Shown here piece by piece: positions 4,534-32,853 of a stretch of DNA of 32,853 nucleotides. How positions within the stretch are numbered: the first letter of the stretch is position 1; every line of letters begins with the position of its first letter. The notes beneath the pieces are model-generated. The model ran no database searches, was not told where the DNA came from, and saw only the letters and a program-made list of their open reading frames with translations. Source of the DNA: an uncultured Bacteroidia bacterium (GTDB lineage Bacteria; Bacteroidota; Bacteroidia; Bacteroidales; F082); contig CACYHX010000026.1 in the NCBI GenBank assembly GCA_902774365.1, positions 1-32,853 of the forward strand, written 5' to 3'. The position numbers and the translations under genes are program-made.

Positions 4534-4552
4534 AATTGATAATGTTTCATTT

Positions 4553-4582
4553 TGTAGAGACGCAAAATTTTGCGTCTCTACA
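4553..4582. repeat. 30-bp perfect palindrome, GTAGAGACGC family
   Basis: The arm TGTAGAGACGCAAAA is followed immediately by its exact reverse complement. It fills the gap between the flavin reductase-rubredoxin gene and fprA. On the minus strand it is followed by AAAATG rather than a T run, so it does not look like a terminator; an mRNA-end or processing structure is possible. Related copies are at 5228, 16203 and 32001. Confidence 0.85.
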
Positions 4583-4583
4583 G

Positions 4584-5204
4584 TTAAAAAACCTCTTCGA
4601 AATCCTCCACGCCATGTTTGCACAACGGGCATTCGAAATCGGGTGGGAGGGAGTCGCCTTCATAGACATAGCCACAGACCTTGCACACCCAGCGACGTTT
4701 GCCGTCCTTAGGCTTCTCTGTGGGTTGGGGTTTGGGCTTGATGTTCTTTTGATAATAGTCGTAGGTCACGCTGGGCTTGTCGGACAACACTTGGGCATCA
4801 AGCACATCGGCGATGAACATGGTGTGCGTGCCGAAGTCGATGCTCTTGGTGACACGGCAGGCGAGGTAGGCATTGGTGTATTTCGGGATATAGAGCACAT
4901 GGTTGACGGCACGATGTTCAGCCTCGCAATCAGCGAATTTGTTCACATTGCGTCCCGACTGGAAGCCGAAGTGCTCGAAGACCTTCATCGGCGTCTCGCT
5001 AGTCAGCATGCTGACGTTGAATACGCAGGAGTCCTTGATGAGGTCATGGGTATAGTTGCCCTTGTTGACCGTCACAGCGATCTGCAAGGGGTTGCTCGTG
5101 ACCTGTATCACCGTGTTGACGATGCAGCCATTGTCGATGTTATCGTAGTTGGTGGTAAGGACGTAAAGTCCATAACCGATATTGAATAATGCTTTGGTAT
5201 CCAT
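4584..5204 (-). CDS. Flavin reductase-rubredoxin fusion (high-molecular-weight rubredoxin, Hrb-like)
   Basis: This is a 206-aa protein. Residues 1 to about 150 form a flavin reductase-like FMN-binding split-barrel domain (GLYVLTT, NTVIQVTSNPLQIAV, FNVSMLTSETPMKVFEHFGF). After a Lys/Pro-rich linker, residues 170-206 are a complete rubredoxin with ligands C174-x2-C177 and C192-x2-C195. This architecture is known as Hrb and passes electrons from NAD(P)H:rubredoxin reductase to flavodiiron proteins. The direct neighbour fprA, 50 nt downstream, fits that role. A palindromic repeat followed by a T run separates it from the upstream rubredoxin, so its expression may be attenuated or partly independent. 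The start ATG at 5204 gives a full FMN domain. Confidence 0.9.
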   Translation of the reverse strand: MDTKALFNIGYGLYVLTTNYDNIDNGCIVNTVIQVTSNPLQIAVTVNKGNYTHDLIKDSCVFNVSMLTSETPMKVFEHFGFQSGRNVNKFADCEAEHRAVNHVLYIPKYTNAYLACRVTKSIDFGTHTMFIADVLDAQVLSDKPSVTYDYYQKNIKPKPQPTEKPKDGKRRWVCKVCGYVYEGDSLPPDFECPLCKHGVEDFEEVF

Positions 5205-5227
5205 TTGTTATTCAATCCTTTAAAAAA

Positions 5228-5257
5228 TGTAGAGACGCGATTAATCGCGTCTCTACA
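5228..5257 (-). repeat. 30-bp perfect palindrome, GTAGAGACGC family, terminator-like on the minus strand
   Basis: The arm TGTAGAGACGCGATT is followed by its exact reverse complement. Reading the minus strand, the stem is followed by TTTTTTAAAGG, so here the repeat has the form of an intrinsic terminator or attenuator between the rubredoxin and the Hrb gene. Related copies are at 4553, 16203 and 32001. Confidence 0.85.
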
Positions 5258-5266
5258 AATCATTAA

Positions 5267-5428
5267 TTATTCCATGACAGAGAAGCTGTCCTTGCCGATG
5301 CCGCAAAGCGGGCAGGACCAGCTGTCGGGAATGGCTTCAAACGGGGTACCGGGAGCGATGCCGCTGTCGGGATCGCCTTTCTCTGGGTCGTAGATGTAAC
5401 CGCAGACGTCGCAAACGTACTTTTTCAT
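5267..5428 (-). CDS. Rubredoxin
   Basis: This 53-aa protein begins [19 protein letters not shown] and ends with [18 protein letters not shown]. It has the two CxxC iron knuckles at C6/C9 and C39/C42 and the standard rubredoxin length. It is a one-electron Fe(Cys)4 carrier in the cytoplasm and the likely electron donor to rubrerythrin (26 nt upstream) and to the flavodiiron protein further down. The start ATG is at 5426-5428. The intergenic DNA on its 5' side (5429-5452) is built of short GTTAAAAGTT-like repeats. Confidence 0.95.
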
Positions 5429-5452
5429 AGTTGAAAGTTTTATAGTTAAAAG

Positions 5453-5992
5453 TTAATAGTTCTCGGCTTTGATTTGGAAGTAGGACTGAGGATGGTTGCA
5501 CACGGGGCAGATTTGCGGGGCCTTCTTGCCAATGACGATATGGCCACAGTTGGAGCATTGCCACACCATGTCGCCTTCGCGAGAGAAGACGATGCCTTCC
5601 TCGATGTTTTTCAGAAGCTTGCGATAGCGTTCCTCGTGTTCCTTCTCGATTTTAGCCACCAGTTCGAAGAGGACGGCAATCTTGGTGAAGCCTTCCTCAC
5701 GGGCGGTCTTGGCCATGCCCGCATACATGTCGGTCCACTCGTAGTTTTCGCCGTCAGCGGCATCTTTCAGGTTGGTCTTGGTGTCGGGCACCTCACCGTC
5801 ATGCAGGAGTTTGAACCAAATCTTGGCGTGTTCCTGTTCGTTGCGAGCCGTCTCTTCAAAGAGGTCGGCGATTTGGTTGTAACCTTCTTTGCGGGCTTTC
5901 GAAGCATAATAGGTGTACTTGTTGCGGGCTTGTGATTCGCCGGCAAACGCTGCCATCAGATTGGCCTCGGTTTTTGAACCTTTTAGTTCCAT
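5453..5992 (-). CDS. rbr: Rubrerythrin
   Basis: This 179-aa protein consists of an N-terminal ferritin-like four-helix diiron domain and a C-terminal rubredoxin-like domain. Diiron ligands can be seen in GES (E19), in the first ExxH (E52-Q-E-H55, NEQEHAKIW) and in the second Glu/His helix ([10 protein letters not shown]). The Fe(Cys)4 site is C146/C149 and C162/C165. Rubrerythrin reduces hydrogen peroxide to water in the cytoplasm of anaerobes, taking electrons from rubredoxin, whose gene follows directly. It is the first gene of the minus-strand oxidative-stress run and has a well-formed promoter at 6075-6104. Length and domain order are normal. Confidence 0.95.
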
Positions 5993-16407: not shown

Positions 16408-19400
16408 ATGAACACTGCCAACAAATCAACTGCTCCTTTATCAAGATCACAATATGGCATCTATGCCGAATGTGTAAGCCACGAAAATGAGATTTTCTAT
16501 AACCTTCCGTTCCTCTTTGTCTTTGACGGCAGCCTCGATGCCGACCGTCTGTGTCGCGCCATCGAGACGACGATAAAGGCGCACCCCACTTTCTTCACGA
16601 GGATTGGGGTGACCGAAGATGGCGAGCCTTTCCAGTCCGTCGACATGGAAAAAGAGGACTTTAGCCTTACCGTCGAACAGGTTATAGACCTTGAGGCTGA
16701 GAAGAAGAAATTCATTGAGCCGTTCAAGCTCTATGGAGGTAGGCTGTTTCATACCAAAGTGCTGCGCGACGCGAACCATATCTATTGGCTCTTCGATATG
16801 CACCATATCATCAGCGACGGCACCTCTTACAATATTATCATTAGCGATGTGGAGACAGCCTATAACGGCGGCACGCTCGCTCCCGAGGAAATGTCGATGC
16901 GGGAACTGGCCCTTGCCGAAGCCGAGATGCGCAAAACGCCCGCCTTCGAGGAAGGCAAACAATGGTACGCCCAAAACTTCGACTGCGGCGACACGTTCAC
17001 CCAACTCCTCCCCGACCGCGAGATTCCCGGACAATCGGATGCCCATTTGGTCCGCATCCTCAACATCGACATGGATCGGGTGGATGCCTTCTGCAAGGAC
17101 AACAACATCAAAAAGAGCACCTTTTTCACAGCGGCCTATGCCTACCTGTTGGCCAAATACAACAACGAGCAGGAATCGCTGTTCAACACGGTTTACAACG
17201 GTCGCACCGAACCGAAGTTCCAACATTCCGTTGGCATGACGGTGAAGACGCTGCCCGTTTACTCCAAGTTTACTGATGAGACCACCGTGCTTGATTTCAT
17301 GAAAGCAAATCAAGAACAGATGGACGGCTGCCGCAAGCACGACATCTATTCCTATACCGACCTGATGGCCGACCTCAACCTGCAAAGCAACTCCATCTTT
17401 GTGTGGCACGGGCTCTTGTTTGATTACACCGAGCTGATGGGTAAACCCATGGAGGCCATACAACTCCGCAAGCACAACGAGGAAGTGCCGTTTTATCTGA
17501 TGTCCTTCTATGTCGGCAAAGAAATACATATCAGGGCGGAATACAATGCCAACGAATACTCCGAGACGCTGATTGCCCAGTTCATGGAGAGCTATGAGGC
17601 TATCTTGGAAGGCTTCCTGAGCCAAACCTATCTGCGCGACATTGACATCACCACAAAGAGCCAATGCGCCTTGCTTGACAGTTTCAACCAGACCGATACT
17701 GACCTTGACAAGAACGCAACCATCGTTTCCATGTTCCGTGAGCAGGTGGCGAAAACGCCCGACAACATTGCTGTGGTCTATAAGGACAAGCGTTTCACCT
17801 ACCGCGAGTTGGATGAGATTTCCGACCGCATCGCTGCCTATATCCATGGAAAAGGCCTTCACGAAGAGGATGTCGTCTCTGTGCTGATTCCCCGTTGCGA
17901 GTGGATGCCTATCGTCTCTCTGGGTGTGTTGAAAGCCGGCTGCGCCTATCAGCCCCTCGACCCGACTTATCCCTCGGAGCGCCTCAACTTCATGATGCAA
18001 GATGCCTCCGTCAAGTTGCTCATTGCCGATGAGTCGTTGCGCGACATCGTGAACGAATACCAAGGCGACGTTTTGCTGACGAAAGACATCAACCAACTGC
18101 CAACTGTAAACTGCCAACTTCCAACTGTAAATCCGGAGGATTTATTTATCATGCTTTACACTTCCGGTACTACGGGTACGCCCAAGGGCTGTCAGTTGGT
18201 GCATCGTAACCTTGTCGCATTCTGTGAGTGGTATCACCGCAGATTCAGTCTCGCCCCCGGCTGCAAAGTTACGGCCTACGCCAGCTATGGTTTCGATGCC
18301 AATATGATGGAAACCTATCCATGTCTCACTAGTGGCGCCACACTCTACATCATCCCCGAAGAACTGCGCTTGGATTTGTTGGCATTGAACGAGTATTTTG
18401 AAAAAGAGCAAATCACCCATGGATTCATGACCACGCAGGTGGCCTATCAGTTTGCCACTTCCGTTGAGAACCACTGCCTGCGCTACCTGTTGACAGGCGG
18501 CGAGAAGTTGGCACCGCTGACTCCGCCCACGAGTTACACCTTGGCCAACCTCTACGGCCCCACCGAAAGCACCGTCTGCATCACTTCCTTCGACGTGACG
18601 AAGCCCATGAAGGACATCCCGATTGGCGCGGCATTAGACAACACCAAACTTTATATAGTCGACAAGGCAGGCCATCGTTTGCCTGTGGGTGCTGCTGGTG
18701 AGCTTTGGGTTGCCGGACCGCAAGTGAGCCGTGGCTACCTCAACCGTCCTGAAAAGACTGCCGAGGTCTATATCAACAACCCCTTCGAAACCAACGAGAA
18801 ATACGCTCACATCTATCGCACCGGCGACATCGTCCGCTATCTCCCCGATGGTAACATCCAATTTGTGGGACGAAAAGACGGACAGGTCAAGATTCGCGGT
18901 TTCCGCATCGAGCTCAAGGAAGTTGAAGGCGTCATCCTTCAGTTCCCGGGCATCAAGGATGCCACGGTGCAGGCCTTCGACGAAGAAGGTGGTGGCAAGT
19001 TCATCGCAGCCTACATCGTTTCCGATGAGACCATTGACATCAAGGCTTTGAACGACTTCATCCTTGACCAGAAACCACCTTACATGGTGCCTGCCGTGAC
19101 GATGCAAATCGACCGCATCCCGCTCAACCAGAACCAGAAGGTGAACAAGAAGGCATTACCCAAACCCGAGAAGAAAGCATCCGAGGCTGTGGTGGAGTGC
19201 AACGTGCCGATGAACCTGTTGGAGCAGGAAATCCATGGTATCATCGCAAAGATCATCAACACTGAAGACTTTGGCGTAACAACAGTGTTGGGCTATGTCG
19301 GCCTGACCTCTATCATGGCCATCAAGTTAGCCATTCAAATCAATAAGCGCTTCGGCGTCACCCTCGACTCGAAATCCTTGGCTAAGACAGGCACTTTGCA

Positions 19401-22400
19401 GACCATCGAGAACGAGATTCTAGCCAAGATGATGAGCGAAGACACTGGAGAAGAGACGGTGAAGACAGAGACACATGCCGACACAAACAATATCCCGCTG
19501 TCATACGCGCAGATGGGCGTTTATGTGGATTGCGTAAAGCAGCCCGAAGCCACCGTATATAATATCCCGATGGCAGTCCGTTTCCCCAAGGATGTGGACA
19601 CCACCCTGCTTACCACGGCATTGGAAACCCTCGTCAAGTCGCATCCTCAAATGCGGGCGCATTTTGGAAGTTCGGGTTCCGACATCATTCAAATCATCGA
19701 TTTCGACCAACCTATCGAAGTTCTGCACAGCCAGCATAACGAGGCAGAGATGAGCCAATACAAACGGGAATTCGTCAAGCCGTTCAATTTGAGGCAAGGT
19801 CCGCTCTACCGCATGGAGATTGTCACTACCGAGCAATGGGTCTATCTTATGCTCGATTTCCATCACCTCATCATGGATGGCGGCTCCTTCGACCTGTTTT
19901 TGACCCAACTCTTTGAATTGCTCAATGGTCGTGAGATCGAACCTGAGTCATTCACCTACGCCGATTTCGTGGCAGCGGAGAAAGCCGCTGAAAGCAGCGA
20001 GGAATACGCGGCTGCCCGAGACTTCTTCCAAGAGCGTTTGGGCAAGGTGGAGGGCGTGACCGAGGTGCCGTCAGACCTGACCAACCCCAAAGAGCAAGGC
20101 GTCATAGAGACCTTGTCGAGCCAGTTGGACTTCGAAGCCATTGAGAGCTTCTGCCGTCAGCATAACATCACTCCGGCGCATCTCACCCTCGCTGCCACCT
20201 TCTATGCACTTTCGCGTTTCACCAACAACGAGCAACTTTGTATCACCACCATCAGCAACGGGCGTTCCGACCTGCGCATCAGCAACACTACCGGCATGTT
20301 CGTCAACACGTTGGCATTGAGTTCCACTATCGGCGAACAGTCTGTGCTTGAGTTCCTTAACGAGACCAGCAAGCAGTTCGATGAGACGTTGCGGCACGAG
20401 AAATATCCTTTCGCACAAATCGCTGCCGACTATGACCTTTCCGCCGAAATCATGTTTGCCTACCAGATGGGCGTTATCGACGAGCATAAGTTCAAAGGCC
20501 AGACGCTGACCATTGACAATCTGGAGTCAGACACGCCGAAGTTCCGCATCGCTTTCTATATCATGAACGACAAGGCAGGTAAGCCGAGTGTGTGCGTCGA
20601 ATATGACAATGGCCGTTACAGTCACGACCTGATGCAAAGTTTAGCCCAGTCGATCTGCAACGCTGCGAAAGCATTCATCCGTCAGCCGGAGATGAAGTTG
20701 CAGCAAGTGTCGCTGTTGGATGCCGAACAAACCACCATCCTTGACAGCTTCAACCAAACCGATGTGCCATACGACGACACCCAGACCATTATCTCGCTAT
20801 TCCGCAAGCAAGTTGCGCAAATGCCCGACAACATGGCGGTGATGTACCATGACAAGCATTATACTTACAAAGAAGTGGATGCCATATCGGAGCGTATCGC
20901 CAGTTACCTTGTGAAGCAAGGCCTTGGCAACGAGGATGTGGTCTCGGTGCTCATTCCGCGCAGCGAGTGGATGGCCATTGCCTCGTTGGGTGTGTTGAAG
21001 GCCGGTTGTGCTTATCAGCCCCTCGACCCGAGTTATCCCGCCGAGCGACTGAACTTCATGATGAAGGATGCCAACGCCAAGTTGCTCATTGCTGATGAAG
21101 AATTGCGTCCCATCGTCGATGAATACCAAGGTGAAGTGCTGTTGACGAAAGACATCGACACGTTGCCTGCGGCTGAGCCTGTAAATGCCGACATCACGCC
21201 TTCGAGCCTCTTCATCATGCTTTACACTTCGGGGTCGACGGGCACACCCAAGGGCTGCCAACTTGAACATGGCAACCTTGTGGCTTTCTGCCATTGGTAT
21301 CAGAGTCATTATGGCTTGACTGCCAACGACAAGGTGGCCGCCTACGCCAGTTATGGCTTCGATGCCTGCATGATGGATATGTATCCAGCGCTGACATGCG
21401 GCGCTTGCGTCTACATCATCGGCGAGGACATCCGCTTGAACTTACCTGATTTGAATGATTACTTCAATTCAAATGGTATAACCCATTCATTTATAACGAC
21501 ACAGGTCGGCTATCAGTTTGCGACGAATGTCGAGAACCATTCGTTGCGTTGCTTCGCTGTAGGTGGCGAGAAACTCTCGGCACTCAACCCGCCGACCAAC
21601 TACAAGATGTACAACGGCTATGGCCCGACGGAATGCACCATTTTCACCACGAATTACTGGGTGAAGGATTACGAATTGGACATCCCCATCGGCAAGCCGT
21701 TAGACAATCTGAGACTCTATATCGTTGACAAGCAATTCAACAGACTGCCCATCGGTGCCATGGGCGAGTTGTGGGTCACGGGACCACAAGTGAGCCGTGG
21801 CTACCTGAACCGTCCCGAAAAGACTGCCGAGACTTACATAAAGAATCCTTTCAGCGACGACCCGAAGCACAGCCGTGTGTATCGCACGGGTGACATCGTG
21901 CGTTACCTCCCCGATGGCAACATCCAGTTTGTGGGACGTAAAGACGGTCAGGTGAAGATTCGTGGTTTCCGCATCGAGTTGAAGGAAGTGGAGGCCGTGA
22001 TACGCCAATTCCCAGGCATCAAGGATGCTACCGTGCAAGCCTTTGATTATGAGAACGGTGGAAAGTTCATCGCCGCCTACATCGTCAGCGACCAGAAGGT
22101 GGACATCAAGGAACTGAGCGCCTTCATCGGGCAGCAGAAACCGTCTTACATGATTCCTGCGGCCACCATGCAAATCGACAGCATCCCGCTGAACCAGAAC
22201 CAGAAGGTGAACCGTAAGGCCTTGCCTGCCCCTGTCATTCAGGCGGAAGACCACGAATATGTGGAGCCTATCAACGATGTCGAGAAACTCTTCTGCAAGA
22301 TTTACAGCGACATTCTGTCAATGGACAAGATTGGCGCGACCGACAACTTCTTCGAGTTGGGTGGCACCTCGCTTATGGTGACGCGTGTCATCATCGAGGC

Positions 22401-23685
22401 TGATAAGGCTGGTCATCATATCGCCTACGGCGACGTATTTGCCAACCCGACACCGCGAATGTTGGCCAACTTCCTCAAAGGTGGTGCTGCCGAGGAGGAC
22501 GAAGAGGCCCGCAACTACAACTACGGCCCCATCAACCATATCCTTGAAGGCAACACCCTCGATGCTTTCCGTAATGGCGAGCGTCAAACTATTGGTAACG
22601 TACTGCTTACGGGATCTACGGGCTTCTTGGGCATCCATGTCCTCAAGGAGCTCATCGACCGCGAGGATGTGCCGACCATCTGGTGCATGGTGAGGGCTGA
22701 AAACGAAGAAAAGGCTGAACGCCGACTGAAAGGAATGCTGTATTACTACTTCAGCGATAGCTATAATGATTTGTTTGGCAGCCGTTTGCGTGTCATCAAC
22801 GGCGATGTGACCCAAGAAATCAAGGTGGATGGCAAAGTCGACACCGTGTTCAATTGCGCCGCCGTGGTGAAGCACTTCTCCAAGGGTACTGAAATCGAGG
22901 ATGTCAACGTGGGTGGCGCGGCACATTGTGTGCGTTTCTGCCTGCTCAATAATGCAAAGCTTATCCATGTGTCAACCTACAGCACGGGTGGCATGTCCAT
23001 CAACGGAATGCCGCCTGAGGATACGGTTTACACCGAGCAGAAACTCTATTTCGGTCAGAACCTTGGCAACCAATACTCACACTCGAAGTTCATCTCCGAG
23101 CGTGTCGTCCTCGACGCCGTGGCCTTGCACAAGCTCAACGCCAAGGTGATGCGTGTGGGCAACCTGGCGCCGCGTTCCACCGATGGTGAGTTCCAAATCA
23201 ACTTCCAGACCAACAGCGCAATGGGACGTATCCGTGTATATCAGATGTTGGGCTGCTATCCTTACGACATTACAGATGCGCCGATGGAGTTCTCGCCCAT
23301 CAACGAGACCGCAAAAGCCATCGTGACGTTGTCTCAAACGCCTAAGGAGTGCTGTCTGTTCCACCCCTACAACAACCATTACGTGCATTTCGGCGATGTG
23401 TTGGCTGAGTTGTCACAAGTGGGGCAAGCACCACGCCAGGTGGAAAACGATGCCTTCAACGAAGCCATGGAAACGGCCAAGCAAGACCCGGAAAAGGCTA
23501 AACGTCTCTCCAGCTTGATTGCCTACCAAGACATGGCCCACGGACAAAAGGCTGTCTTGATTCCAGCAGACAACCAATACACGACACAGGTGCTGTATCG
23601 CCTCGGCTTCCGCTGGTCGAGCACCTCATGGGATTATGTGGACCAGATGCTGAAAGCTATCGCCGGCTTCGGTTATTTCGAATAA
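16408..23685 (+). CDS. Bimodular non-ribosomal peptide synthetase, C-A-T-C-A-T-R
   Basis: This is a 2425-aa cytosolic megaenzyme. C1 (1 to about 440) has an intact HHxxxDG (H132-G138). A1 (about 455-960) has LYTSGTTGTPKG (583-594), YGPTE and YRTGD. T1 carries S968 in the unusual context VGLTSI. C2 (about 1030-1450) has HHLIMDG (1152-1158). A2 (about 1470-1960) has YTSGSTGTPKG from 1606. T2 carries S1988 in canonical LGGTSL. R (about 2060-2425) is a thioester reductase with TGSTGFLG (2068-2075) and Y2223-x3-K2227. There is no thioesterase or epimerase. By known NRPS logic two amino acids are joined and released reductively as an aldehyde; the starter C domain may add an acyl group. By alignment to GrsA the pocket residues are A1 D-A-M-F-L-G-L-V-C-K and A2 D-A-M-F-A-G-G-I-F-K, suggesting hydrophobic substrates (tentative). 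No transporter or phosphopantetheinyl transferase is adjacent. The gene is monocistronic. Confidence 0.95.
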   Translation: MNTANKSTAPLSRSQYGIYAECVSHENEIFYNLPFLFVFDGSLDADRLCRAIETTIKAHPTFFTRIGVTEDGEPFQSVDMEKEDFSLTVEQVIDLEAEKKKFIEPFKLYGGRLFHTKVLRDANHIYWLFDMHHIISDGTSYNIIISDVETAYNGGTLAPEEMSMRELALAEAEMRKTPAFEEGKQWYAQNFDCGDTFTQLLPDREIPGQSDAHLVRILNIDMDRVDAFCKDNNIKKSTFFTAAYAYLLAKYNNEQESLFNTVYNGRTEPKFQHSVGMTVKTLPVYSKFTDETTVLDFMKANQEQMDGCRKHDIYSYTDLMADLNLQSNSIFVWHGLLFDYTELMGKPMEAIQLRKHNEEVPFYLMSFYVGKEIHIRAEYNANEYSETLIAQFMESYEAILEGFLSQTYLRDIDITTKSQCALLDSFNQTDTDLDKNATIVSMFREQVAKTPDNIAVVYKDKRFTYRELDEISDRIAAYIHGKGLHEEDVVSVLIPRCEWMPIVSLGVLKAGCAYQPLDPTYPSERLNFMMQDASVKLLIADESLRDIVNEYQGDVLLTKDINQLPTVNCQLPTVNPEDLFIMLYTSGTTGTPKGCQLVHRNLVAFCEWYHRRFSLAPGCKVTAYASYGFDANMMETYPCLTSGATLYIIPEELRLDLLALNEYFEKEQITHGFMTTQVAYQFATSVENHCLRYLLTGGEKLAPLTPPTSYTLANLYGPTESTVCITSFDVTKPMKDIPIGAALDNTKLYIVDKAGHRLPVGAAGELWVAGPQVSRGYLNRPEKTAEVYINNPFETNEKYAHIYRTGDIVRYLPDGNIQFVGRKDGQVKIRGFRIELKEVEGVILQFPGIKDATVQAFDEEGGGKFIAAYIVSDETIDIKALNDFILDQKPPYMVPAVTMQIDRIPLNQNQKVNKKALPKPEKKASEAVVECNVPMNLLEQEIHGIIAKIINTEDFGVTTVLGYVGLTSIMAIKLAIQINKRFGVTLDSKSLAKTGTLQTIENEILAKMMSEDTGEETVKTETHADTNNIPLSYAQMGVYVDCVKQPEATVYNIPMAVRFPKDVDTTLLTTALETLVKSHPQMRAHFGSSGSDIIQIIDFDQPIEVLHSQHNEAEMSQYKREFVKPFNLRQGPLYRMEIVTTEQWVYLMLDFHHLIMDGGSFDLFLTQLFELLNGREIEPESFTYADFVAAEKAAESSEEYAAARDFFQERLGKVEGVTEVPSDLTNPKEQGVIETLSSQLDFEAIESFCRQHNITPAHLTLAATFYALSRFTNNEQLCITTISNGRSDLRISNTTGMFVNTLALSSTIGEQSVLEFLNETSKQFDETLRHEKYPFAQIAADYDLSAEIMFAYQMGVIDEHKFKGQTLTIDNLESDTPKFRIAFYIMNDKAGKPSVCVEYDNGRYSHDLMQSLAQSICNAAKAFIRQPEMKLQQVSLLDAEQTTILDSFNQTDVPYDDTQTIISLFRKQVAQMPDNMAVMYHDKHYTYKEVDAISERIASYLVKQGLGNEDVVSVLIPRSEWMAIASLGVLKAGCAYQPLDPSYPAERLNFMMKDANAKLLIADEELRPIVDEYQGEVLLTKDIDTLPAAEPVNADITPSSLFIMLYTSGSTGTPKGCQLEHGNLVAFCHWYQSHYGLTANDKVAAYASYGFDACMMDMYPALTCGACVYIIGEDIRLNLPDLNDYFNSNGITHSFITTQVGYQFATNVENHSLRCFAVGGEKLSALNPPTNYKMYNGYGPTECTIFTTNYWVKDYELDIPIGKPLDNLRLYIVDKQFNRLPIGAMGELWVTGPQVSRGYLNRPEKTAETYIKNPFSDDPKHSRVYRTGDIVRYLPDGNIQFVGRKDGQVKIRGFRIELKEVEAVIRQFPGIKDATVQAFDYENGGKFIAAYIVSDQKVDIKELSAFIGQQKPSYMIPAATMQIDSIPLNQNQKVNRKALPAPVIQAEDHEYVEPINDVEKLFCKIYSDILSMDKIGATDNFFELGGTSLMVTRVIIEADKAGHHIAYGDVFANPTPRMLANFLKGGAAEEDEEARNYNYGPINHILEGNTLDAFRNGERQTIGNVLLTGSTGFLGIHVLKELIDREDVPTIWCMVRAENEEKAERRLKGMLYYYFSDSYNDLFGSRLRVINGDVTQEIKVDGKVDTVFNCAAVVKHFSKGTEIEDVNVGGAAHCVRFCLLNNAKLIHVSTYSTGGMSINGMPPEDTVYTEQKLYFGQNLGNQYSHSKFISERVVLDAVALHKLNAKVMRVGNLAPRSTDGEFQINFQTNSAMGRIRVYQMLGCYPYDITDAPMEFSPINETAKAIVTLSQTPKECCLFHPYNNHYVHFGDVLAELSQVGQAPRQVENDAFNEAMETAKQDPEKAKRLSSLIAYQDMAHGQKAVLIPADNQYTTQVLYRLGFRWSSTSWDYVDQMLKAIAGFGYFE
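18093..18131 (+). repeat. CCAACTGTAAA-type short repeat in frame in the A1 domain
   Basis: CTGCCAACTGTAAA (18097-18110) is followed by CTGCCAACTTCCAACTGTAAA with an internal insertion (18111-18131). It encodes QLPTVNCQLPTVN immediately before the A3 core; the equivalent place in A2 is TLPAAEPVNADITPS. Confidence 0.75.
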
Positions 23686-25184: not shown

Positions 25185-26426
25185 TTATTTCTTCTTTTTT
25201 TCAATCCACCTCCTCACTGGGCCTTTCCCGTTGAGTTCCATTATGACAAGAATGCCGAAGGCGATGGCAACGGTAGCCTTGAGTGCGGCGAAGCCCGTGT
25301 GGAGTGCATCGGGCAGTTGGTTAGAGACGATATTGTAGCTCGTCCAAAAGATGCCTGCGCCAGGAACCAAGGGAAAAATTCCGCTGATGAGGAACACCGT
25401 GATAGGGCATTTGCGAGCCGTTGATTGCGCGAGAGCGACCATGGTGACCAAGGCGGTGGCGCAAAACATCACTTCGACGGGCGAAAACGCAGAATAACGG
25501 GTCAAGATGAGATAAAGTAGCCATCCCAGTGTTCCACATAAACCCGCATCTAAATAATACTTGCGAGGCACGCCAAAAAGCACGGCAAAGGCCATCGTAC
25601 CCAAGAAGGCAGCAATGAGTTGCACGATAAATCCCGAAGTCTGCGGGTCGGCAACGAGTGGGTCGAGGGCCAATATCGCGCCGAAGATATTACCGTCGAG
25701 CATGAAAGCCAAAGCCACACCAAATGAAATGCAGAAAAACGTCAGCATGGCGTCCAAGAGTCGTGTGGTACCAGCAAGGTAGTCCTCGTTAGCCATGTCG
25801 CGAATGCCATTGGTGAACGCGACACCGGGAATCAGAGGGATGATGGCACCGATGATCATATTGCTCAAGTGTGAGCCTAACCCGATGCGATACAATCCAA
25901 AGCAAATCAAAGACGAGAGCGCTCCGCCCGTGACGGTACTCACGATGCGCGAAAGATGCTTTGAGCCTACAAAAAGCACAAAGACCCACAGAACAAGGCC
26001 GGCGATAAACGAGGCCAGACAGTCGGTGAAGCCGCCACCAAAGAGGATGCAGAAAGCGGCGCTGCCCACGGCCGATGCCAAAATTTGTTCCCAGGCGCGT
26101 TTGGGCTTCATGGCACGTATTTGTTTCAGTCTTTCCTCAATTTGCTCCAGGGTGCATTGTCCAGCCGCCACTTCGCGCGAAAGCTGGTTGACGGCCACAA
26201 CCCTATCCAGGCTCGCCCCTTTGATGGGGATGAACTTCGAGCGGGCATAGCCTTCATTTGTGACGATGATGCCGTTGCTGAGAACGAAAAAGCTCTCGTC
26301 CTCCATGCCGAAATGTTCGGCCATGCGCCGCATGGTTCCTTCCACGCGTGAGATTTCGGCACCATTCTCCAGAAGGATGGCACCAGCTTCATAAGTGAGG
26401 TCTAGGATCTTTTGGTTGTCGGTCAT
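25185..26426 (-). CDS. Threonine/serine exporter (ThrE family, fused two-domain form)
   Basis: This 413-aa integral membrane protein begins with a cytosolic N-terminal domain of about 110 residues. It opens LTYEAGAILLENGAEISRVE, followed by RRMAEHFG and VLSNGIIV, the hallmark of the YjjP/ThrE N-terminal half. Roughly ten membrane helices follow. The second half (GFIVQLIAAFLGTMAFAVLF, GVPRKY, CGTLGWLLYL, then FPLVPGAGI) corresponds to the YjjB/ThrE_2 domain, and IPLIPGVAFTNGIRDM is the matching motif in the first half. The family exports threonine and serine across the inner membrane; members in anaerobes have also been linked to succinate export. A 14-bp palindrome lies upstream at 26465-26478. 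Confidence 0.88.
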   Translation of the reverse strand: MTDNQKILDLTYEAGAILLENGAEISRVEGTMRRMAEHFGMEDESFFVLSNGIIVTNEGYARSKFIPIKGASLDRVVAVNQLSREVAAGQCTLEQIEERLKQIRAMKPKRAWEQILASAVGSAAFCILFGGGFTDCLASFIAGLVLWVFVLFVGSKHLSRIVSTVTGGALSSLICFGLYRIGLGSHLSNMIIGAIIPLIPGVAFTNGIRDMANEDYLAGTTRLLDAMLTFFCISFGVALAFMLDGNIFGAILALDPLVADPQTSGFIVQLIAAFLGTMAFAVLFGVPRKYYLDAGLCGTLGWLLYLILTRYSAFSPVEVMFCATALVTMVALAQSTARKCPITVFLISGIFPLVPGAGIFWTSYNIVSNQLPDALHTGFAALKATVAIAFGILVIMELNGKGPVRRWIEKKKK

Positions 26427-26540: not shown

Positions 26541-26630
26541 TTAAACTTTTTCTTCGGCGAAGCGGAGTTTTACGTTCACTTTGCCGTCGGTGTCGGTGTA
26601 TAGGATGATGTTGTTTTCTTTTTCGGGCAT
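26541..26630 (-). pseudogene. 29-codon RhuM-like N-terminal fragment
   Basis: The frame reads MPEKENNIILYTDTDGKVNV then KLRFAEEKV and stops with TAA. It resembles the first about 30 residues of RhuM/Fic-associated virulence proteins, which usually open with a xxIxxYxxxDGxxxxxVxxxxE strand pair and continue with WLTQ. The continuation is missing here, so it is probably a deletion remnant that kept its start and promoter. It could instead be a very small expressed peptide. Confidence 0.5.
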
Positions 26631-26707: not shown

Positions 26708-28552
26708 TTAATTACTTTTCAAAGATAATAGGCCTGATATTCTTTGTGCATTAGTCCTGGCAAATTCTAATAAGTATTTAAAAGGGAACGGGACAACTGT
26801 TAATTGTCCGTTTCTTACAAAAGTTACAGCCATTAACTTTAACAATTTGTCGAAAAACAAGTTGCTATTTTGCCAGGTATCAACCAATCTAATATTGGCA
26901 GCAGTCGGTATTACTCTTCGCATTCCAGCTCCAATTATTCCTGAAAAATAGAACAGTGAGTTATTGTTGTTGGCAAAGCACTTTATATCAGTTATTGCAG
27001 GAAACAATTCCTCTCGGCTGATTTTATCTCGTATTTTATTATCATTATTTTGCAACCTTTCTTTTATAAGCTCAATCTCCGGGATTGTTTTTAATCTAGT
27101 ATTTCGAATGACATTAACATCATCTCCGTATTTCACGACTCCGACGACATCCTCATTATCGAAAATATCAATACATTCTTGGTATTCGTCATGTTCAAAT
27201 AAAGTATTTTCTCTTTCTGCAATTGTAAAATCACCATTGGGCGAAATCGTCATAAAATAAAAGTGCCTACAATCATCCCCGCCTTTATAGCAAATCCCAA
27301 AAACTATATTTCCAATAAAACCATAGTCAGACCAGTTCACCATTGAAATATGGTTACACACAATATCTTCTTTTATCAAGACCTCTTGCATTATACAATC
27401 CAATATTGATTTCCAACCAGTTTCATTGTCTTTTTCACTACTCATCAAGTGAGCTATTGTTTCTATGGTCACATGTTGGATCGCACAATCTTTATAGACT
27501 TTATCATGCGGATCATCATTATCTTTATAGAAATCATCCTCATGAATAAGAACAATATTGATGGCATCGACATTAGGTCGTTTATATACTGAGATATTAC
27601 AACCAAACTGTTCTTTTATTTTTTGTTTAAGCCCTTCAATACAAAGTGGAGAAGTTGAGTCTAAGACTCTGTCAACCAACACGATTTTATGCGATGAAGC
27701 ACTCTCTTTAATCCTTTGCTCACTCTCTTTCAATAATTTGGATGAAATTTGTTCTTCCTGATAGTCATTGAATGAATCGAATTTAAGATGCGCCACGCCA
27801 TAAAACTTGGCATTGAATTTATCTATACAATCACAAATGACGCCCATTTTGGTTTTCTGAAACTTCTCCAATGAATCGATTTCAAGAAACTTGATATTAG
27901 TTTTATTATCCCCCATTTGCCTTAGGATATAGGCTTCAGACGAAGACCCTTTTTCAATTCGTTTCAAAATATTGTCCTTTCCAAGAACATATTCCGGATA
28001 TTCATTAAACTTCTTTTTGCCAAATCTGATATACCTTTGTTGTGTAATGGAAGTGAATGTCCTAACATTCCAATCTAATAGCAATTCCTTAGTCACTCTT
28101 AATTCCAAAGTAACAATCTGCTTTCTTTTCGGCTTAACCCATGAAGGATGATGTATATAGAAGTGACCAGTAACATTATGGTAGCCAAGAATCGCACCTT
28201 CATAAGTTCCCATAGAATTAAGCAATAATTGCACAATAATGTTTTGAGGTACCGATTCTACATACAATTTATCTATTGTAATATTCTCTGTTCCATGTAG
28301 TTTTTGTACTGCTTTGTTTATGTTATTTTGGTTCTCAACTGATTTTTTGAGCAACATATAAAATGAATTGCCACGTTCGTATACCACTGACAACACAAAT
28401 TTTTCATTTGTAAAATCGTCTACAAGTTTTGCCGCATTGTTTCCTTTCCCGAAATACATATCAGAGGTTCTGACATTAAAGATTTCGTATGTTTCAGAAA
28501 GAATGACCGTGTTAAGGTCAACAACTAGTTTATTTGTTTGTATCCTATTCAT
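26708..28552 (-). CDS. ddmE: Divergent Argonaute/PIWI-like protein, DdmE-like
   Basis: This 614-aa cytosolic protein has no obvious close family by eye. Its last about 60 residues fit the end of a PIWI domain: a helix FFDKLLKLMAVTFVRNGQ, then TVVPFPFKYLLEFAR (P588, P590, Y593, R599), the Argonaute pattern P-x-P-x-x-Y-x(5)-R. Around residue 335-360, INIVLIHEDD ... KDCAIQHVTIE resembles the MID-PIWI junction. A clear Asp-Glu-Asp-His/Asp catalytic set is not apparent, suggesting a slicing-inactive protein. The gene overlaps by 8 nt the helicase-nuclease upstream. In Vibrio cholerae, DdmE is a catalytically inactive, DNA-guided Argonaute of about 680 aa that recruits DdmD to plasmids; gene order, size and overlap agree. 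Base composition is clearly AT-rich. An alternative is an uncharacterised partner of a helicase defence system. Confidence 0.6.
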   Translation of the reverse strand: MNRIQTNKLVVDLNTVILSETYEIFNVRTSDMYFGKGNNAAKLVDDFTNEKFVLSVVYERGNSFYMLLKKSVENQNNINKAVQKLHGTENITIDKLYVESVPQNIIVQLLLNSMGTYEGAILGYHNVTGHFYIHHPSWVKPKRKQIVTLELRVTKELLLDWNVRTFTSITQQRYIRFGKKKFNEYPEYVLGKDNILKRIEKGSSSEAYILRQMGDNKTNIKFLEIDSLEKFQKTKMGVICDCIDKFNAKFYGVAHLKFDSFNDYQEEQISSKLLKESEQRIKESASSHKIVLVDRVLDSTSPLCIEGLKQKIKEQFGCNISVYKRPNVDAINIVLIHEDDFYKDNDDPHDKVYKDCAIQHVTIETIAHLMSSEKDNETGWKSILDCIMQEVLIKEDIVCNHISMVNWSDYGFIGNIVFGICYKGGDDCRHFYFMTISPNGDFTIAERENTLFEHDEYQECIDIFDNEDVVGVVKYGDDVNVIRNTRLKTIPEIELIKERLQNNDNKIRDKISREELFPAITDIKCFANNNNSLFYFSGIIGAGMRRVIPTAANIRLVDTWQNSNLFFDKLLKLMAVTFVRNGQLTVVPFPFKYLLEFARTNAQRISGLLSLKSN

Positions 28553-31500
28553 TTTTCAACTCTTGTATTTTTATAGCAGCCTTTTGTGACAATTTTGCAT
28601 TACAAATTAGCGACAATTCTATTATATTGATATTGCAAATTTTTGTTGTTATGGGTTCTTCAAATCCTGTATCTCTGACATTTGCGATTAATATTGTCCT
28701 AACATCTTTACATCCATTTGCTTTTTCAGCCACTTTATTGTGATATTCTTTGGCGTCAAATTGCGTTGTATCTTTCCAATACTTGAAATCTACATAAATT
28801 GGCTTTCCTTTCACCTTAAAGTCAAATAGTTCATGTTCTTCAGCATTCAATTCCTCAAGAGGAATACCAAAATACTCAAAAATTTCTTTTCCACACACCT
28901 CGCCAAGTGCGCCTTTGTATATATTGTTATACAGAGAAGGTGAAAGAATATAGTCACCTTCTTTGAAATCAATCGCATAATTGTGTTTAATAAACAATTC
29001 CTTTATATGAGGCCATGTTTCAAACAGATTCTTAAGATTTGCATCTTCAGACGAAACTTCATATGCATTCTCGAATCTATCTTTTGCGATTTGATTGATT
29101 GAATAATAATCGTTATTTTGCTGATAATAGTATTTTCTAATTGGTTCACCAAATGAGATATAATGCAACTTGAACGGACTTTTCGACCATTCTTCTTCTG
29201 TCAATGTCGGATGTTGCAATGTGTATTCTCGCATTGTTTTCCACTTTCGAATTTCTTCGTCACTCCATCTGTTTTCAAAACATCTGGTAAGCAGCTGTAG
29301 TATCCTTTTGTTTGACGAAATGGACATATTAATAGCATCTTCTATATATTCATTTGGCACAGCATCTTCATTTAACTCAAACTTATTTGCCAACGCAACC
29401 ATTTCTTGGTTAAACATTCTGTCCTCTGAAAACAGGGTTGACTTGTCCAGCGCATCTCCTAGTTCAGAATCTGCAAGTATATAAACCCTCTTTCCCCTAT
29501 AGCTAGTTCGGCATTTTCTCCCCATCGCTTGAACAATAGTTTTAGTGGCGAAAATTTTTACATCTCGAAGATTTGAGAACGATTTATTCCGAAATTTAGC
29601 TCTTTCATTACTCTTGTTTATACTATTGTAGGACAAGACAATCTCTTTCATCTTATCAGTATATGATATAGCCTTTTTTTGAAACAAGTATTCCATTTGA
29701 AACACTCTATTAATGGCTGTTTCTTCTTCCCCATCGCACTGATAAACAAGTAAAGTTGGTTTGTCTAGATAAATACCCTCAATATCCATTTCGGACTTGT
29801 TTTCCCTTGTATTGTTGATTTTTATCACTTCATTTTGCCTATTTGCCGGTATACTATATTGTAAATTTTGTCCAGCGCCAATTGTGGCATAGGTAGAAAT
29901 GATGAATCTTCTTTTACCTTCGCTTAAAGCATCTATCAATTCTTTTTTCTGCTCATCAAAATTATTTGAATCAAGAACGGTACAAATACTTTCTTCAAAA
30001 GGAACGCCCTTTTCAGCGGATAATAACTTATATAGTTCAAACAAAGTATTTTGATCAAAATCCCCATCGTTCTTTTTCAAGGCTTTTGAAAACAACGCCA
30101 AATATGATTGCAGGTTGTTATCTAAAAACTGCTTAAAGGCCAAAACCGCTTTGAAGTATCTAACTTCTTTATAAATATCATTATTGTAAGATGTTATATT
30201 ATGAGCATGGTTAACAACGTCTTTATCGGTATAAATGCTTGACCAATTTGGCAAATCTTTAGAAGAAGTTTCTGTTAAATCTACAACAATTTCAACCTTT
30301 TCGAATCCTGATGTTTGGTTTTCAAAGTCTTTCTTAAGTCTCTCTTTGTCTTCCGTTGTAAGTTTTATAAAGTTCTCTCCCAATTTCCATTCTAAATAGT
30401 CAATATCATAATTGCCTAATACAGTTTTAAATGTCGCAGTTGCAGATATTCCTACTACTTTTGAAAGTGTACAAATCGTAAATAAAATACTCTCAGGTGT
30501 ATCTTCGAAGACGAATTTTCTTATGATGGTTGTATTATCATGAGAATAATCATCGCAAAAATCATAATGACTAAATCCTGTTGCATAAAAGGAAAAGTCA
30601 TCAATTATATCAACAGTATTGCTCGTTTTTGTCCTAAATCGATTGCTATATGTCAATGCCATTTCTCGGATAATCCTATTACTGTCTCCCTGCAAATGAA
30701 ACGAATCAAGGACCGTGTCAATGGCATGATATTCTGTAAATTCTCCATACGACATTCCATCTTCTTCGTTTTGTATTTTGTTTTTACGGTAACTATATGC
30801 CAAGATGGCAACAAATCGCGCAAAGTGCGAAATGGCTCCTTTGATTTTGTTTAATGCGTTGTATAAAGGATCGTCTAATTGGCCTTTTGGTACGAGTGAT
30901 AATGTGTTTAAATTCTTTTTCTTGTCGTACTCAACCACGACATCTTCTTTTCCTGTTGTGTAATTGTTATGTGTAAAGTCAGAGAACAAAACGACCCGCT
31001 TCTCTTCAAATCCAAGAGACTTATGATGCTGTAAGAGATGATGTTCTTTTGAAATGTCATCAAAGATTCTTATGTTTTTTTCTAAAGCATGCCTATGGCT
31101 TGGTCTATTCTCAATATTTTCCCAAATATTAGATGGTATGGATGCTTGATTGTCAAGGCAAATCTTTATATTTCGAAATAGGTCTATGTAATCAATGCTC
31201 TTATTTAGTCCATTTTGGACAATCATATCTTGAATATCCTTCTTAGTAGCATCAAACTCATCTATAAAGACAAGAGAGTTTCTAAAAAAGGAAGTCTCGT
31301 AAAGCCTTACACTTTTCTCGATGATTGTGTCGTATTTGTTTATCAATTTCTTCATCGTAATGAAGAAAACTCTTTTTTCTTCCGAAAAGACAATCGGATA
31401 CAATTCTCCTACCCATTGCCAATCTTTGTCATTCTTTATGGCATTGAGTTTTTCTGACTTTTTCTTGAATTTTCGAGAAAGAGTTTTGCTAATTAAGTAT

Positions 31501-31910
31501 CTGAAATTTCTTTCTATATCTCCAAAAGCATCGGGCTTGTTTACCCCAGCTGTTATTAAAGCATCAAAACTCCTAAACTCTTCCGAAAATCGTATTTCAC
31601 TTATCTTTATGTCTTTCTTTATTCTATTAAAATTCTTGATTGCATGTTCGGTGTTAGAAAGAACTCTAAAAACAGAGTCTTTTAAATCAGAATCTTTATC
31701 TAATTCTTTTATCAAATCGTTATACGGATCATCTAAGTTCTTTTTTAACGTGGTGACAAAGAATATCTTTTTGTCTTGATTCTGTTTTAGGTAACTCTTA
31801 ATAAACTGAAGGACATTGTATGTTTTCCCTGTGCCAGTTGGCATATCCAATAGTAACAAGCCCGTATCCTTCGTATTATCTAAACAATATCTCTTTAATA
31901 ACTCTATCAT
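28545..31910 (-). CDS. ddmD: SF2 helicase with C-terminal PD-(D/E)XK-like nuclease, DdmD-like
   Basis: This is a 1121-aa protein. Walker A starts almost at the N-terminus (MPTGTGKT, K29). The Walker B box is DEFD (217-220), motif III is SATA (S489), motif V lies in STYATIGAGQNLQ, and motif VI is QAMGRKCR (794-801), so both RecA lobes are complete, with a large insertion between them. Near the C-terminus, GALGEVCGKEIFEYFGI precedes FDFKV (D1030) and YVDFKYW (D1041-x-K1043). That arrangement is the core of a PD-(D/E)XK nuclease, with Asp in place of the usual Glu. Helicase plus C-terminal nuclease of this length, followed by a PIWI-like gene, is the layout of DdmD (about 1190 aa). DdmD is loaded by DdmE and then unwinds and degrades invading plasmid DNA. 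It is first in its operon, codon usage is AT-rich unlike the flanks, and transcription should start between 31911 and 31990. Confidence 0.8.
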   Translation of the reverse strand: MIELLKRYCLDNTKDTGLLLLDMPTGTGKTYNVLQFIKSYLKQNQDKKIFFVTTLKKNLDDPYNDLIKELDKDSDLKDSVFRVLSNTEHAIKNFNRIKKDIKISEIRFSEEFRSFDALITAGVNKPDAFGDIERNFRYLISKTLSRKFKKKSEKLNAIKNDKDWQWVGELYPIVFSEEKRVFFITMKKLINKYDTIIEKSVRLYETSFFRNSLVFIDEFDATKKDIQDMIVQNGLNKSIDYIDLFRNIKICLDNQASIPSNIWENIENRPSHRHALEKNIRIFDDISKEHHLLQHHKSLGFEEKRVVLFSDFTHNNYTTGKEDVVVEYDKKKNLNTLSLVPKGQLDDPLYNALNKIKGAISHFARFVAILAYSYRKNKIQNEEDGMSYGEFTEYHAIDTVLDSFHLQGDSNRIIREMALTYSNRFRTKTSNTVDIIDDFSFYATGFSHYDFCDDYSHDNTTIIRKFVFEDTPESILFTICTLSKVVGISATATFKTVLGNYDIDYLEWKLGENFIKLTTEDKERLKKDFENQTSGFEKVEIVVDLTETSSKDLPNWSSIYTDKDVVNHAHNITSYNNDIYKEVRYFKAVLAFKQFLDNNLQSYLALFSKALKKNDGDFDQNTLFELYKLLSAEKGVPFEESICTVLDSNNFDEQKKELIDALSEGKRRFIISTYATIGAGQNLQYSIPANRQNEVIKINNTRENKSEMDIEGIYLDKPTLLVYQCDGEEETAINRVFQMEYLFQKKAISYTDKMKEIVLSYNSINKSNERAKFRNKSFSNLRDVKIFATKTIVQAMGRKCRTSYRGKRVYILADSELGDALDKSTLFSEDRMFNQEMVALANKFELNEDAVPNEYIEDAINMSISSNKRILQLLTRCFENRWSDEEIRKWKTMREYTLQHPTLTEEEWSKSPFKLHYISFGEPIRKYYYQQNNDYYSINQIAKDRFENAYEVSSEDANLKNLFETWPHIKELFIKHNYAIDFKEGDYILSPSLYNNIYKGALGEVCGKEIFEYFGIPLEELNAEEHELFDFKVKGKPIYVDFKYWKDTTQFDAKEYHNKVAEKANGCKDVRTILIANVRDTGFEEPITTKICNINIIELSLICNAKLSQKAAIKIQELKNE

Positions 31911-31982
31911 GGAATCAAGTTTTCAAATTACTCTATAATCTTTATGTTCTGAACGAGTACATGCCAAACAAAAACATCATTA

Positions 31983-32038
31983 TAAAAAATCGCCGTCCCC
32001 GTAGAGGCGTGCCACGGCGCGCCTCTACTAAGAACGGC
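31983..32038 (-). terminator. Terminator of etfA built on a GTAGAG-family palindrome
   Basis: On the minus strand an outer stem GCCGT/ACGGC (32038-32034 with 31996-31992) encloses the palindrome 32028-32001. A T run, GATTTTTTATA, follows at 31991-31981. It separates etfA from the ddmD-like gene. Confidence 0.75.
32001..32028. repeat. 28-nt palindrome, GTAGAG family variant
   Basis: The arms GTAGAGGCGTGCC and GGCGCGCCTCTAC pair over 13 bp (one G-U) with a 2-nt centre. It shares GTAGAG-(A/G)CG ends with the copies at 4553, 5228 and 16203 but has a GC-rich middle. Confidence 0.8.
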
Positions 32039-32054
32039 AATTCATTTCGGAGAA

Positions 32055-32853
32055 TTACTTCTCAATCTCCTTCTTCAGTCTCTCCGTCAGCATGGGGACA
32101 ATCTTGTGAAGGTCTCCAACGATGCCGAGGTCGGCAACGCTGAAGATGGGCGCGAACTTGTCCTTGTTGATGGCGATGATGAAGTCGGACTCTTCCATAC
32201 CGGCCAAGTGCTGGATGGCGCCGCTGATACCACAAGCCATGTAAAGGTTCGGGCGGACGGTCTTACCCGTCTGACCCACCTGACGCTCGTGAGGCATCAC
32301 GCCGTTGTCGACCATGGCACGGCTCGACGAAACCTGTCCGCCAAGCACATCGGCCAAAGCCTGCAACTTGTCGAAGCCTTCCTTGTTGTGGACGCCACGA
32401 CCGCCGGAGACCAAAATCTTGGCATCGGCGATGTCGACCATAGCCTTGTCTTCCTTGATGGTCTCAACGAGTTTCACCTTGAACTTGCTGGTGTCGAACT
32501 TCGGCACAAAGGCGGTGACCACGCCTTGGCGGCCTTCTTGACGTTGACGCTTCTGCATCACGCCAGGACGCACGGTCGACATCTGCGGACGGGTGTTGGG
32601 GCAAATGATGGTGGCCATCAGGTTGCCGCCGAAAGCGGGACGCGTCATGCGGAACTGCGGCTCGCCGTTGCTCTTCTCGTCGCTGACGACTTCGAGCTTG
32701 GTGCAGTCTGCGGTCAGACCGGTCTTCAGACGCGAAGCGATACGCGGAGCCATATCACGGCCAATGGTGGTGGCACCATAGAGCACGATGTTGGGGCAAC
32801 GCTCCTTGACGATCTGGTCGACGACCTGCGAGTATTGCTCACTCAAGTAGTCT
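32055..32853 (-). CDS. etfA: Electron transfer flavoprotein alpha subunit, 5' end outside the window
   Basis: The frame is open to the window edge (DYLSEQYSQVVDQIVKE...), so the first part of the protein (about 70 residues by family size) is missing. A TTG near 32846 is an internal Leu, not a start. The ETF alpha signature is clear: SSSRAMVDNGVMPHERQVGQ-TGKTV followed by LYMACGISGAIQHLAGMEES and FIIAINKD, which bind FAD. The preceding part (NIVLYGATTIGRDMAPRIAS-RLKTGL-TADCT) belongs to the N-terminal domain. ETF carries electrons between flavoprotein dehydrogenases and a quinone, or takes part in flavin-based bifurcation in anaerobes; etfB and a partner dehydrogenase would be expected upstream. 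A terminator follows. Confidence 0.95.
   Translation of the reverse strand, partial: DYLSEQYSQVVDQIVKERCPNIVLYGATTIGRDMAPRIASRLKTGLTADCTKLEVVSDEKSNGEPQFRMTRPAFGGNLMATIICPNTRPQMSTVRPGVMQKRQRQEGRQGVVTAFVPKFDTSKFKVKLVETIKEDKAMVDIADAKILVSGGRGVHNKEGFDKLQALADVLGGQVSSSRAMVDNGVMPHERQVGQTGKTVRPNLYMACGISGAIQHLAGMEESDFIIAINKDKFAPIFSVADLGIVGDLHKIVPMLTERLKKEIEK

Follow-up and report, generated by a model that had tools for sequence, protein, structure and literature searches.

A probable chromosomal DdmDE system with a compact DdmE in an uncultured Bacteroidia bacterium

Analysis of 32,853 nucleotides of DNA from an uncultured Bacteroidia bacterium (Bacteroidales; F082; assembly GCA_902774365.1, contig CACYHX010000026.1, positions 1-32,853; this whole stretch is hereafter called the window) has revealed two adjacent genes, encoding proteins of 1121 and 614 amino acids, which very probably constitute a chromosomal DdmDE system. 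What is new here is a distant member of this known system, with a compact form of DdmE and a wide range of relatives. A first-pass annotation made from the sequence had proposed a far-diverged DdmDE-type pair, a proposal that is supported by sequence matches, profiles, predicted folds and gene pairing. Both open reading frames and their 8-nucleotide overlap were confirmed, as was every DdmD motif that it had named, from the Walker A GTGKT to D1041-x-K1043 (Table 1). The locus is also an AT-rich island, as had been noticed: the proportion of guanine plus cytosine is 0.32-0.34 in the five 1-kb bins covering 27001-32000 and 0.40-0.54 in the 27 other bins, the last 853 bases of the window being outside the bins.

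The 1121-residue protein matches the PADLOC DdmD model (6.4e-44), and by sequence its only relatives of solved structure are the DdmDs of Lactobacillus casei (9ix4, 1.8e-58) and Vibrio cholerae (8u0u, 8.6e-42), as found by a phmmer search of PDB. A profile of 64 DdmD proteins (from 63 of the 80 loci described below, plus the window protein) extends these matches to 1e-165 and 5e-119, respectively, and the homology runs over the whole length. In general domain collections the protein is poorly described, with one Pfam family above the cut-off (ResIII) and only a sub-threshold Cas3 match in NCBIfam. An AlphaFold2 model with a predicted local distance difference test score (pLDDT) of 85.5 was compared with solved structures by Foldseek. 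Every one of hits 1-21 belonged to a DdmD or DdmDE entry, the L. casei and V. cholerae proteins matching best, and DinG and XPD helicases came after them. As judged from the 64 aligned sequences, the motifs of the superfamily 2 (SF2) helicase are intact and the residues of a C-terminal PD-(D/E)XK nuclease core are kept.

The 614-residue protein matches nothing above the cut-off in Pfam or NCBIfam, and no Pfam family matches any of 71 aligned DdmE proteins at 1e-3 (70 of 75 downstream genes plus the window protein; L061, L099, L115, L119 and L130 were excluded as split or cut). By phmmer, it is related to the DdmEs of L. casei (9iw3, 5.2e-15) and V. cholerae (8u3k, 3e-5). The profile of the 71 proteins matches the former at 1.6e-70 in one stretch of nearly the whole length and the latter at 4e-46 in two stretches. 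Its AlphaFold2 model (pLDDT 88.5, predicted template modelling (TM) score 0.86) retrieved DdmE in the first six Foldseek hits, including L. casei 9ixm_B (7.2e-34, TM-score 0.74-0.76) and V. cholerae 9ezy_B (2.3e-29); PiwiA, T. thermophilus Argonaute (TtAgo) and A. fulgidus Piwi (AfPiwi) came next, with E-values of 2e-8 to 3e-4. The protein is therefore predicted to adopt a long-Argonaute-like fold with MID and PIWI domains, and the PIWI-like end seen in the first-pass annotation is upheld by a model that shows a DdmE/Argonaute fold rather than one lacking these domains. The domain limits are approximate, being drawn from the secondary structure of the model together with the alignment, without superposed coordinates. 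Within the MID region, a set of residues is conserved in the 71 proteins (N332..IH337..Y342..D347..QH360.T.E364..K394.D396). No catalytic PIWI tetrad is conserved among them: E596 is the one position in residues 400-614 at which more than 75% of the proteins have an acidic residue, a result that concerns conservation and not activity.

Relatives of the pair were collected by scanning the genome contigs of 84,980 species with an alignment of four DdmD proteins, and 80 of 146 relatives were kept, so that counts by phylum should not be read as frequencies. Loci were chosen on DdmD alone and not on DdmE. In 76 of the 80 loci, ddmE lies directly after ddmD, and the remaining four are cut by a contig end (at most 276 nucleotides past ddmD in L069, L079 and L127, and within ddmD itself in L111). 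The same order is found in the window, and the partners of the helicase homologues are thus DdmE rather than the mostly unrelated genes that would have spoken against the first-pass proposal. A profile of the window DdmE and its five nearest relatives recognises 75 of 76 proteins at 1e-3 (the window's own and 75 downstream genes). The one it misses, the downstream gene of L099, is cut by a contig end and matches the 71-protein profile. The figure of 76 of 80 includes L099 and the split ddmE of L098. Among 501 other open reading frames of the same loci, the 71-protein profile matches only three, all of which are parts of split ddmE genes (L061, L098 and L130). Distances in the DdmD and DdmE trees are correlated at 0.88 over 68 pairs, a value reached in none of 1000 permutations (highest 0.13), and the agreement of the trees indicates that the two proteins have co-evolved.

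Several observations weigh against this assignment. The PADLOC DdmE model does not match the 614-residue protein at E-values up to 1, its identity to the solved DdmEs in structural alignment is no more than about 16%, and it lacks a segment of the PIWI domain that both of them carry. Elsewhere in the family, ddmE is split in L061, L098 and L130: an insert of about 2.5 kb interrupts it in L098 (Cesiribacteraceae, L098:11491-16133), and the gene changes frame in L061 and L130, which may be assembly error. Similarly, ddmD looks broken in L123 and L132, because its frame is short (383 and 446 amino acids) despite a long match. The lineage is also rare in the phylum samples, since the window's own genome was the sole match for DdmD at 1e-10 (1 of 395) and for the DdmE profile at 1e-5 (1 of 395). 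With regard to the PADLOC model, it recognises 23 of the 71 DdmE proteins at 1e-3; the idea that it misses compact proteins alone was rejected, as 13 of the 35 compact proteins and 23 of 71 overall are recognised. One standard detection model thus misses many members of the family.

The missing PIWI segment separates the family into two forms. Between residues 500 and 524 of the window protein there are 19-25 residues in 35 DdmE proteins and 82-128 residues in the other 36 (n=71). The window DdmE is compact and both solved DdmEs are long: profile positions 509-573 are skipped in the former and aligned in the DdmEs of L. casei and V. cholerae. The point at which the segment is missing was placed by alignment and model, not by superposed coordinates. 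Because the two forms are almost equally common, the PIWI segment varies inside the family, and it is not described as defining DdmE in the available portions of the literature surveyed. Two changes are sufficient to explain the distribution of compact and long forms on either the DdmD or the DdmE tree (68 rows). Owing to the low identity and the absence of the segment, details of recruitment may differ in the window pair. Should the segment contribute to holding the target or passing it on to DdmD, recruitment or release of DdmD would proceed differently in the compact type, and DdmDE would be a defence of two architectures, spread from gut bacteria to methanogenic archaea; this is put forward only tentatively, as a possibility with the odds somewhat against it.

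The pair is located between etfA, encoding the alpha subunit of electron transfer flavoprotein (ETF), and a thrE-type exporter gene. Among 99 genomes of the genus, DdmE of the window type was found in three (the window's, G113 and G544), in each case between etfA and thrE. By their lengths and coordinates, L053 and L054 of the contig scan duplicate G113:C51 and G544:C54, and therefore add no species. In G113 and G544, ddmE ends 12 codons earlier than in the window and is followed by an intact rhuM gene, of which the window retains a remnant; homology of the window to both breaks off at 26543. A search for thrE gave 45 matches, spread over 43 of the 99 genomes; 30 of these loci were examined. 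Twelve of the 30 also reach etfA, with an etfA-thrE distance of 65-67 bases (an empty site) in three and of 564-1288 bases with other inserts in nine. Full-length rhuM adjoins thrE in six of the 30 loci (G113 and G544 included) and a remnant in three. In this genus, the interval between etfA and thrE is variable: it contains DdmDE, rhuM or other inserts, or measures only 65-67 bases.

Synonymous divergence among the three species is 0.08-0.10 for ddmD and 0.006-0.07 for ddmE, far lower than for thrE (1.07-1.21) and etfA (0.18-0.37), showing that the pair has passed between species in recent times; recombination into the etfA-thrE site is the simplest route. Ratios of non-synonymous to synonymous divergence (dN/dS) are 0.12-0.15 for ddmD and 0.12-0.27 for ddmE, the lowest ddmE value resting on three changes, and show purifying selection on both genes. 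This selection, together with the strong DdmD and DdmE sequence matches, argues that the locus is not a product of chance.

In the V. cholerae system, as described in PMC12409362, DNA guides are bound by DdmE, which identifies plasmid DNA and brings in DdmD; the DdmD dimer dissociates, and DdmD travels 5'-3' on single-stranded DNA and cuts. The components that a mechanism of this type requires are present in the window. By analogy, the Argonaute-like DdmE, which would have no nuclease of its own, would carry a short DNA guide and locate the DNA that matches it on an incoming small multicopy plasmid. DdmE would then recruit DdmD, which would leave its inactive dimer, load on the displaced strand and translocate by ATP hydrolysis, and the C-terminal nuclease would cut the strand, so that the plasmid would be lost. 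We infer an anti-plasmid action of the window pair on this analogy.

Other readings of the locus have been considered. One is that it represents an ApsAB-type pair, a related antiplasmid pair of E. coli that likewise combines a helicase-nuclease with an Argonaute-like partner; according to the consulted portion of PMC11096173, ApsA and DdmD are both members of a broad family of helicase-nucleases. However, no similarity in sequence between ApsB and DdmE is reported there, whereas the 614-residue protein matches DdmE by both profile and fold. Moreover, the ApsB motif Y-x3-K..QG..K was not found at the MID position, where the window protein has Y342-x3-D346 and Q359-H360 instead, and an ApsAB-type identity is thus very improbable. 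Equally remote is a decaying island pair without function. The truncation of the neighbouring rhuM to 29 codons speaks for it, as do the split or short homologues in L061, L098, L130, L123 and L132; yet ddmD is of full length in all three species, as is ddmE apart from the 12 codons absent in two of them, and the dN/dS values stay at 0.12-0.27 with all named catalytic residues kept.

A less remote, although still improbable, alternative is a DdmDE homologue retuned to the DNA of phages or integrative elements instead of small plasmids. The presence of DdmD relatives in 5 of 72,556 plasmid records lends it something, because it means that some plasmids survive alongside the family. Nothing was found that points directly to phages as the target, and the V. 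cholerae system is described in PMC12409362 as acting mainly on small plasmids. The preferred reading is a DdmDE system that would act on plasmids. As for the occurrence of the genes themselves in viruses, viral contigs gave no pattern match for the window DdmD, and phage records gave no match at 1e-5.

The 80 listed loci are distributed over Bacteroidota, Bacillota, Fibrobacterota, Spirochaetota and Cyanobacteriota, together with one alphaproteobacterial metagenome-assembled genome, four archaea and a few unassigned sources. The archaeal pairs are found in Methanolobus (L074), Methanoperedens (L076), Methanoculleus (L085) and Methanosarcina (L096), and their DdmDs group with cyanobacterial ones in the DdmD tree. 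In a family-level sample, DdmD matches occurred in 6 of 149 genomes: the window's, G113 (97%), three with a divergent pair, and G116. The G116 match covers residues 6-68 only and was set aside, the protein being taken, by eye from its first residues and its neighbour, for a probable type III restriction helicase. The expectation in the first-pass annotation that the pair would widen the known range of the system holds only in part, since a plasmid of Persicobacter, another member of the Bacteroidota, also carries a DdmDE-type pair and further pairs are spread over many phyla.

Three of the plasmid loci were opened (Nostoc, Persicobacter and Cetobacterium), and in each a second gene lies directly after the DdmD relative. 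On the Nostoc (L011) and Persicobacter (L012) plasmids these form DdmDE pairs, with DdmE profile scores of 670 and 76 bits, so here an anti-plasmid system is itself plasmid-borne. On the Cetobacterium plasmid (L013), the score of the second gene was 22 bits against a compositional bias of 50, and this gene was not counted. A second, very different DdmDE-like pair (1260 and about 661 amino acids) occurs in three other genomes of the genus, being complete in G028 and G051 and having its ddmE cut by a contig end in G104. Its 661-residue protein scores 113 bits (G028) and 103 bits (G051) against the DdmE profile; the G028 protein alone gave no match among solved structures. In L015 and L016, the gene preceding this pair resembles a methyltransferase by eye.

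Neighbours of other family members have also been surveyed. Related proteins of about 330 amino acids are encoded just upstream of ddmD in L108, L120, L124, L128, L130 and L131; they are probably WYL regulators of the type described in V. cholerae (VC1772). Among the neighbours in that set, 7 of 92 match the PADLOC WYL model and 5 of 92 the Pfam WYL family, the matching members not being named. Some of the nearest neighbours of ddmDE in 62 loci matched defence models, among them GajB (3 of 134), mad2/mad3 (4 of 134) and PDC-S01 (4 of 92).

Among known systems, L. casei DdmDE (9ix4, 9iw3, 9ixm) is the nearest solved relative by sequence and fold and shares the two-protein make-up and both folds with the window pair. 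It differs in identity (about 16% for DdmE and 22% for DdmD in structural alignment) and in its 715-residue DdmE chain with the extra PIWI segment. Short prokaryotic Argonaute (pAgo) systems such as SPARTA and SPARDA resemble DdmDE in that an inactive Argonaute calls in an effector, but this effector is an APAZ-fused TIR or nuclease rather than an SF2 helicase-nuclease. V. cholerae DdmDE (8u3k, 9ezy, 9bgk), as far as its published description was available, also has the two proteins, the folds and an Argonaute without its own nuclease; its DdmE chains (677-690 amino acids) contain the PIWI segment. A predicted WYL regulator is placed upstream there in the available text of PMC12409362, whereas etfA occupies this place in the window. 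The published ApsA/DdmD tree (PMC11096173, available in part) may already include Bacteroidota. In their accessible portions, PMC11411939 treats DdmDE and also mentions Bacteroid-, and PMC10239892 mentions both terms; 'Ddm' does not occur in the main text, as available, of the rumen defence survey PMC11834463. No priority is claimed for DdmDE in Bacteroidales or archaea.

Table 1. Features of the ddmDE locus and its surroundings (window coordinates, except in the last row)
Feature	Position	Strand	Remarks
ddmD	28545..31910	-	1121 aa; SF2 helicase, PD-(D/E)XK-type nuclease predicted at the C terminus
Walker A GTGKT, residues 26-30	31821..31835	-	K29 in 64/64; T30 in 59, S in 5
DExD motif DEFD, residues 217-220	31251..31262	-	D217, E218, D220 in 64/64
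SAT motif SATA, residues 489-492	30435..30446	-	S489 A490 T491 in 64/64
Motif VI QAMGRKCR, residues 794-801	29508..29531	-	Q794 G797 R798 R801 in 64/64
Nuclease core E1004...D1030...D1041-x-K1043	28782..28901	-	all four residues in 64/64
ddmE	26708..28552	-	614 aa; Argonaute-like, compact PIWI; 8-nt overlap with ddmD
MID region (approximate), residues ~289-400	27353..27688	-	conservation in 71 DdmE
PIWI region (approximate), residues ~401-599	26756..27352	-	ends in conserved TVxPFPFKYLxE stretch
Site after residue 506, long-form segment of ~60-100 residues absent	27034..27035	-	placed by alignment
etfA (ETF alpha, cut by window end), site boundary	32055..32852	-	Pfam ETF, ETF_alpha
thrE-type exporter, other site boundary	25185..26426	-	Pfam ThrE, ThrE_2
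rhuM remnant, first 29 codons	26544..26630	-	79% identical to residues 1-29 of L014 RhuM
Second-pair loci	L015:7287-13051, L016:5947-11723, L017:32-4485		ddmE cut by contig end in L017

In the rest of the window, a 2425-residue protein (16408-23685) combines two AMP-binding stretches, two Condensation stretches and PP-binding with a NAD_binding_4 domain at its end, and is predicted to be a non-ribosomal peptide synthetase that terminates in a reductase-type domain. Genes at 3343-5992 encode a flavodiiron-type protein, a flavin reductase with a rubredoxin-like domain and a rubrerythrin, an oxygen-stress set that fits an anaerobe. Promoter-like sites are not in excess (20, compared with 24.2 in shuffled sequences), and terminator-like sites are somewhat commoner (7, compared with 3.0, standard deviation 1.9).

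According to PMC12409362, DdmDE is part of the explanation for the loss of plasmids in pandemic V. cholerae. The occurrence of complete pairs in anaerobic bacteria of the gut, in cyanobacteria and in archaea points to a possible role of guided plasmid destruction in the gut and rumen, whose communities exchange antibiotic resistance on plasmids, and the compact DdmE proteins are offered as material for its study.

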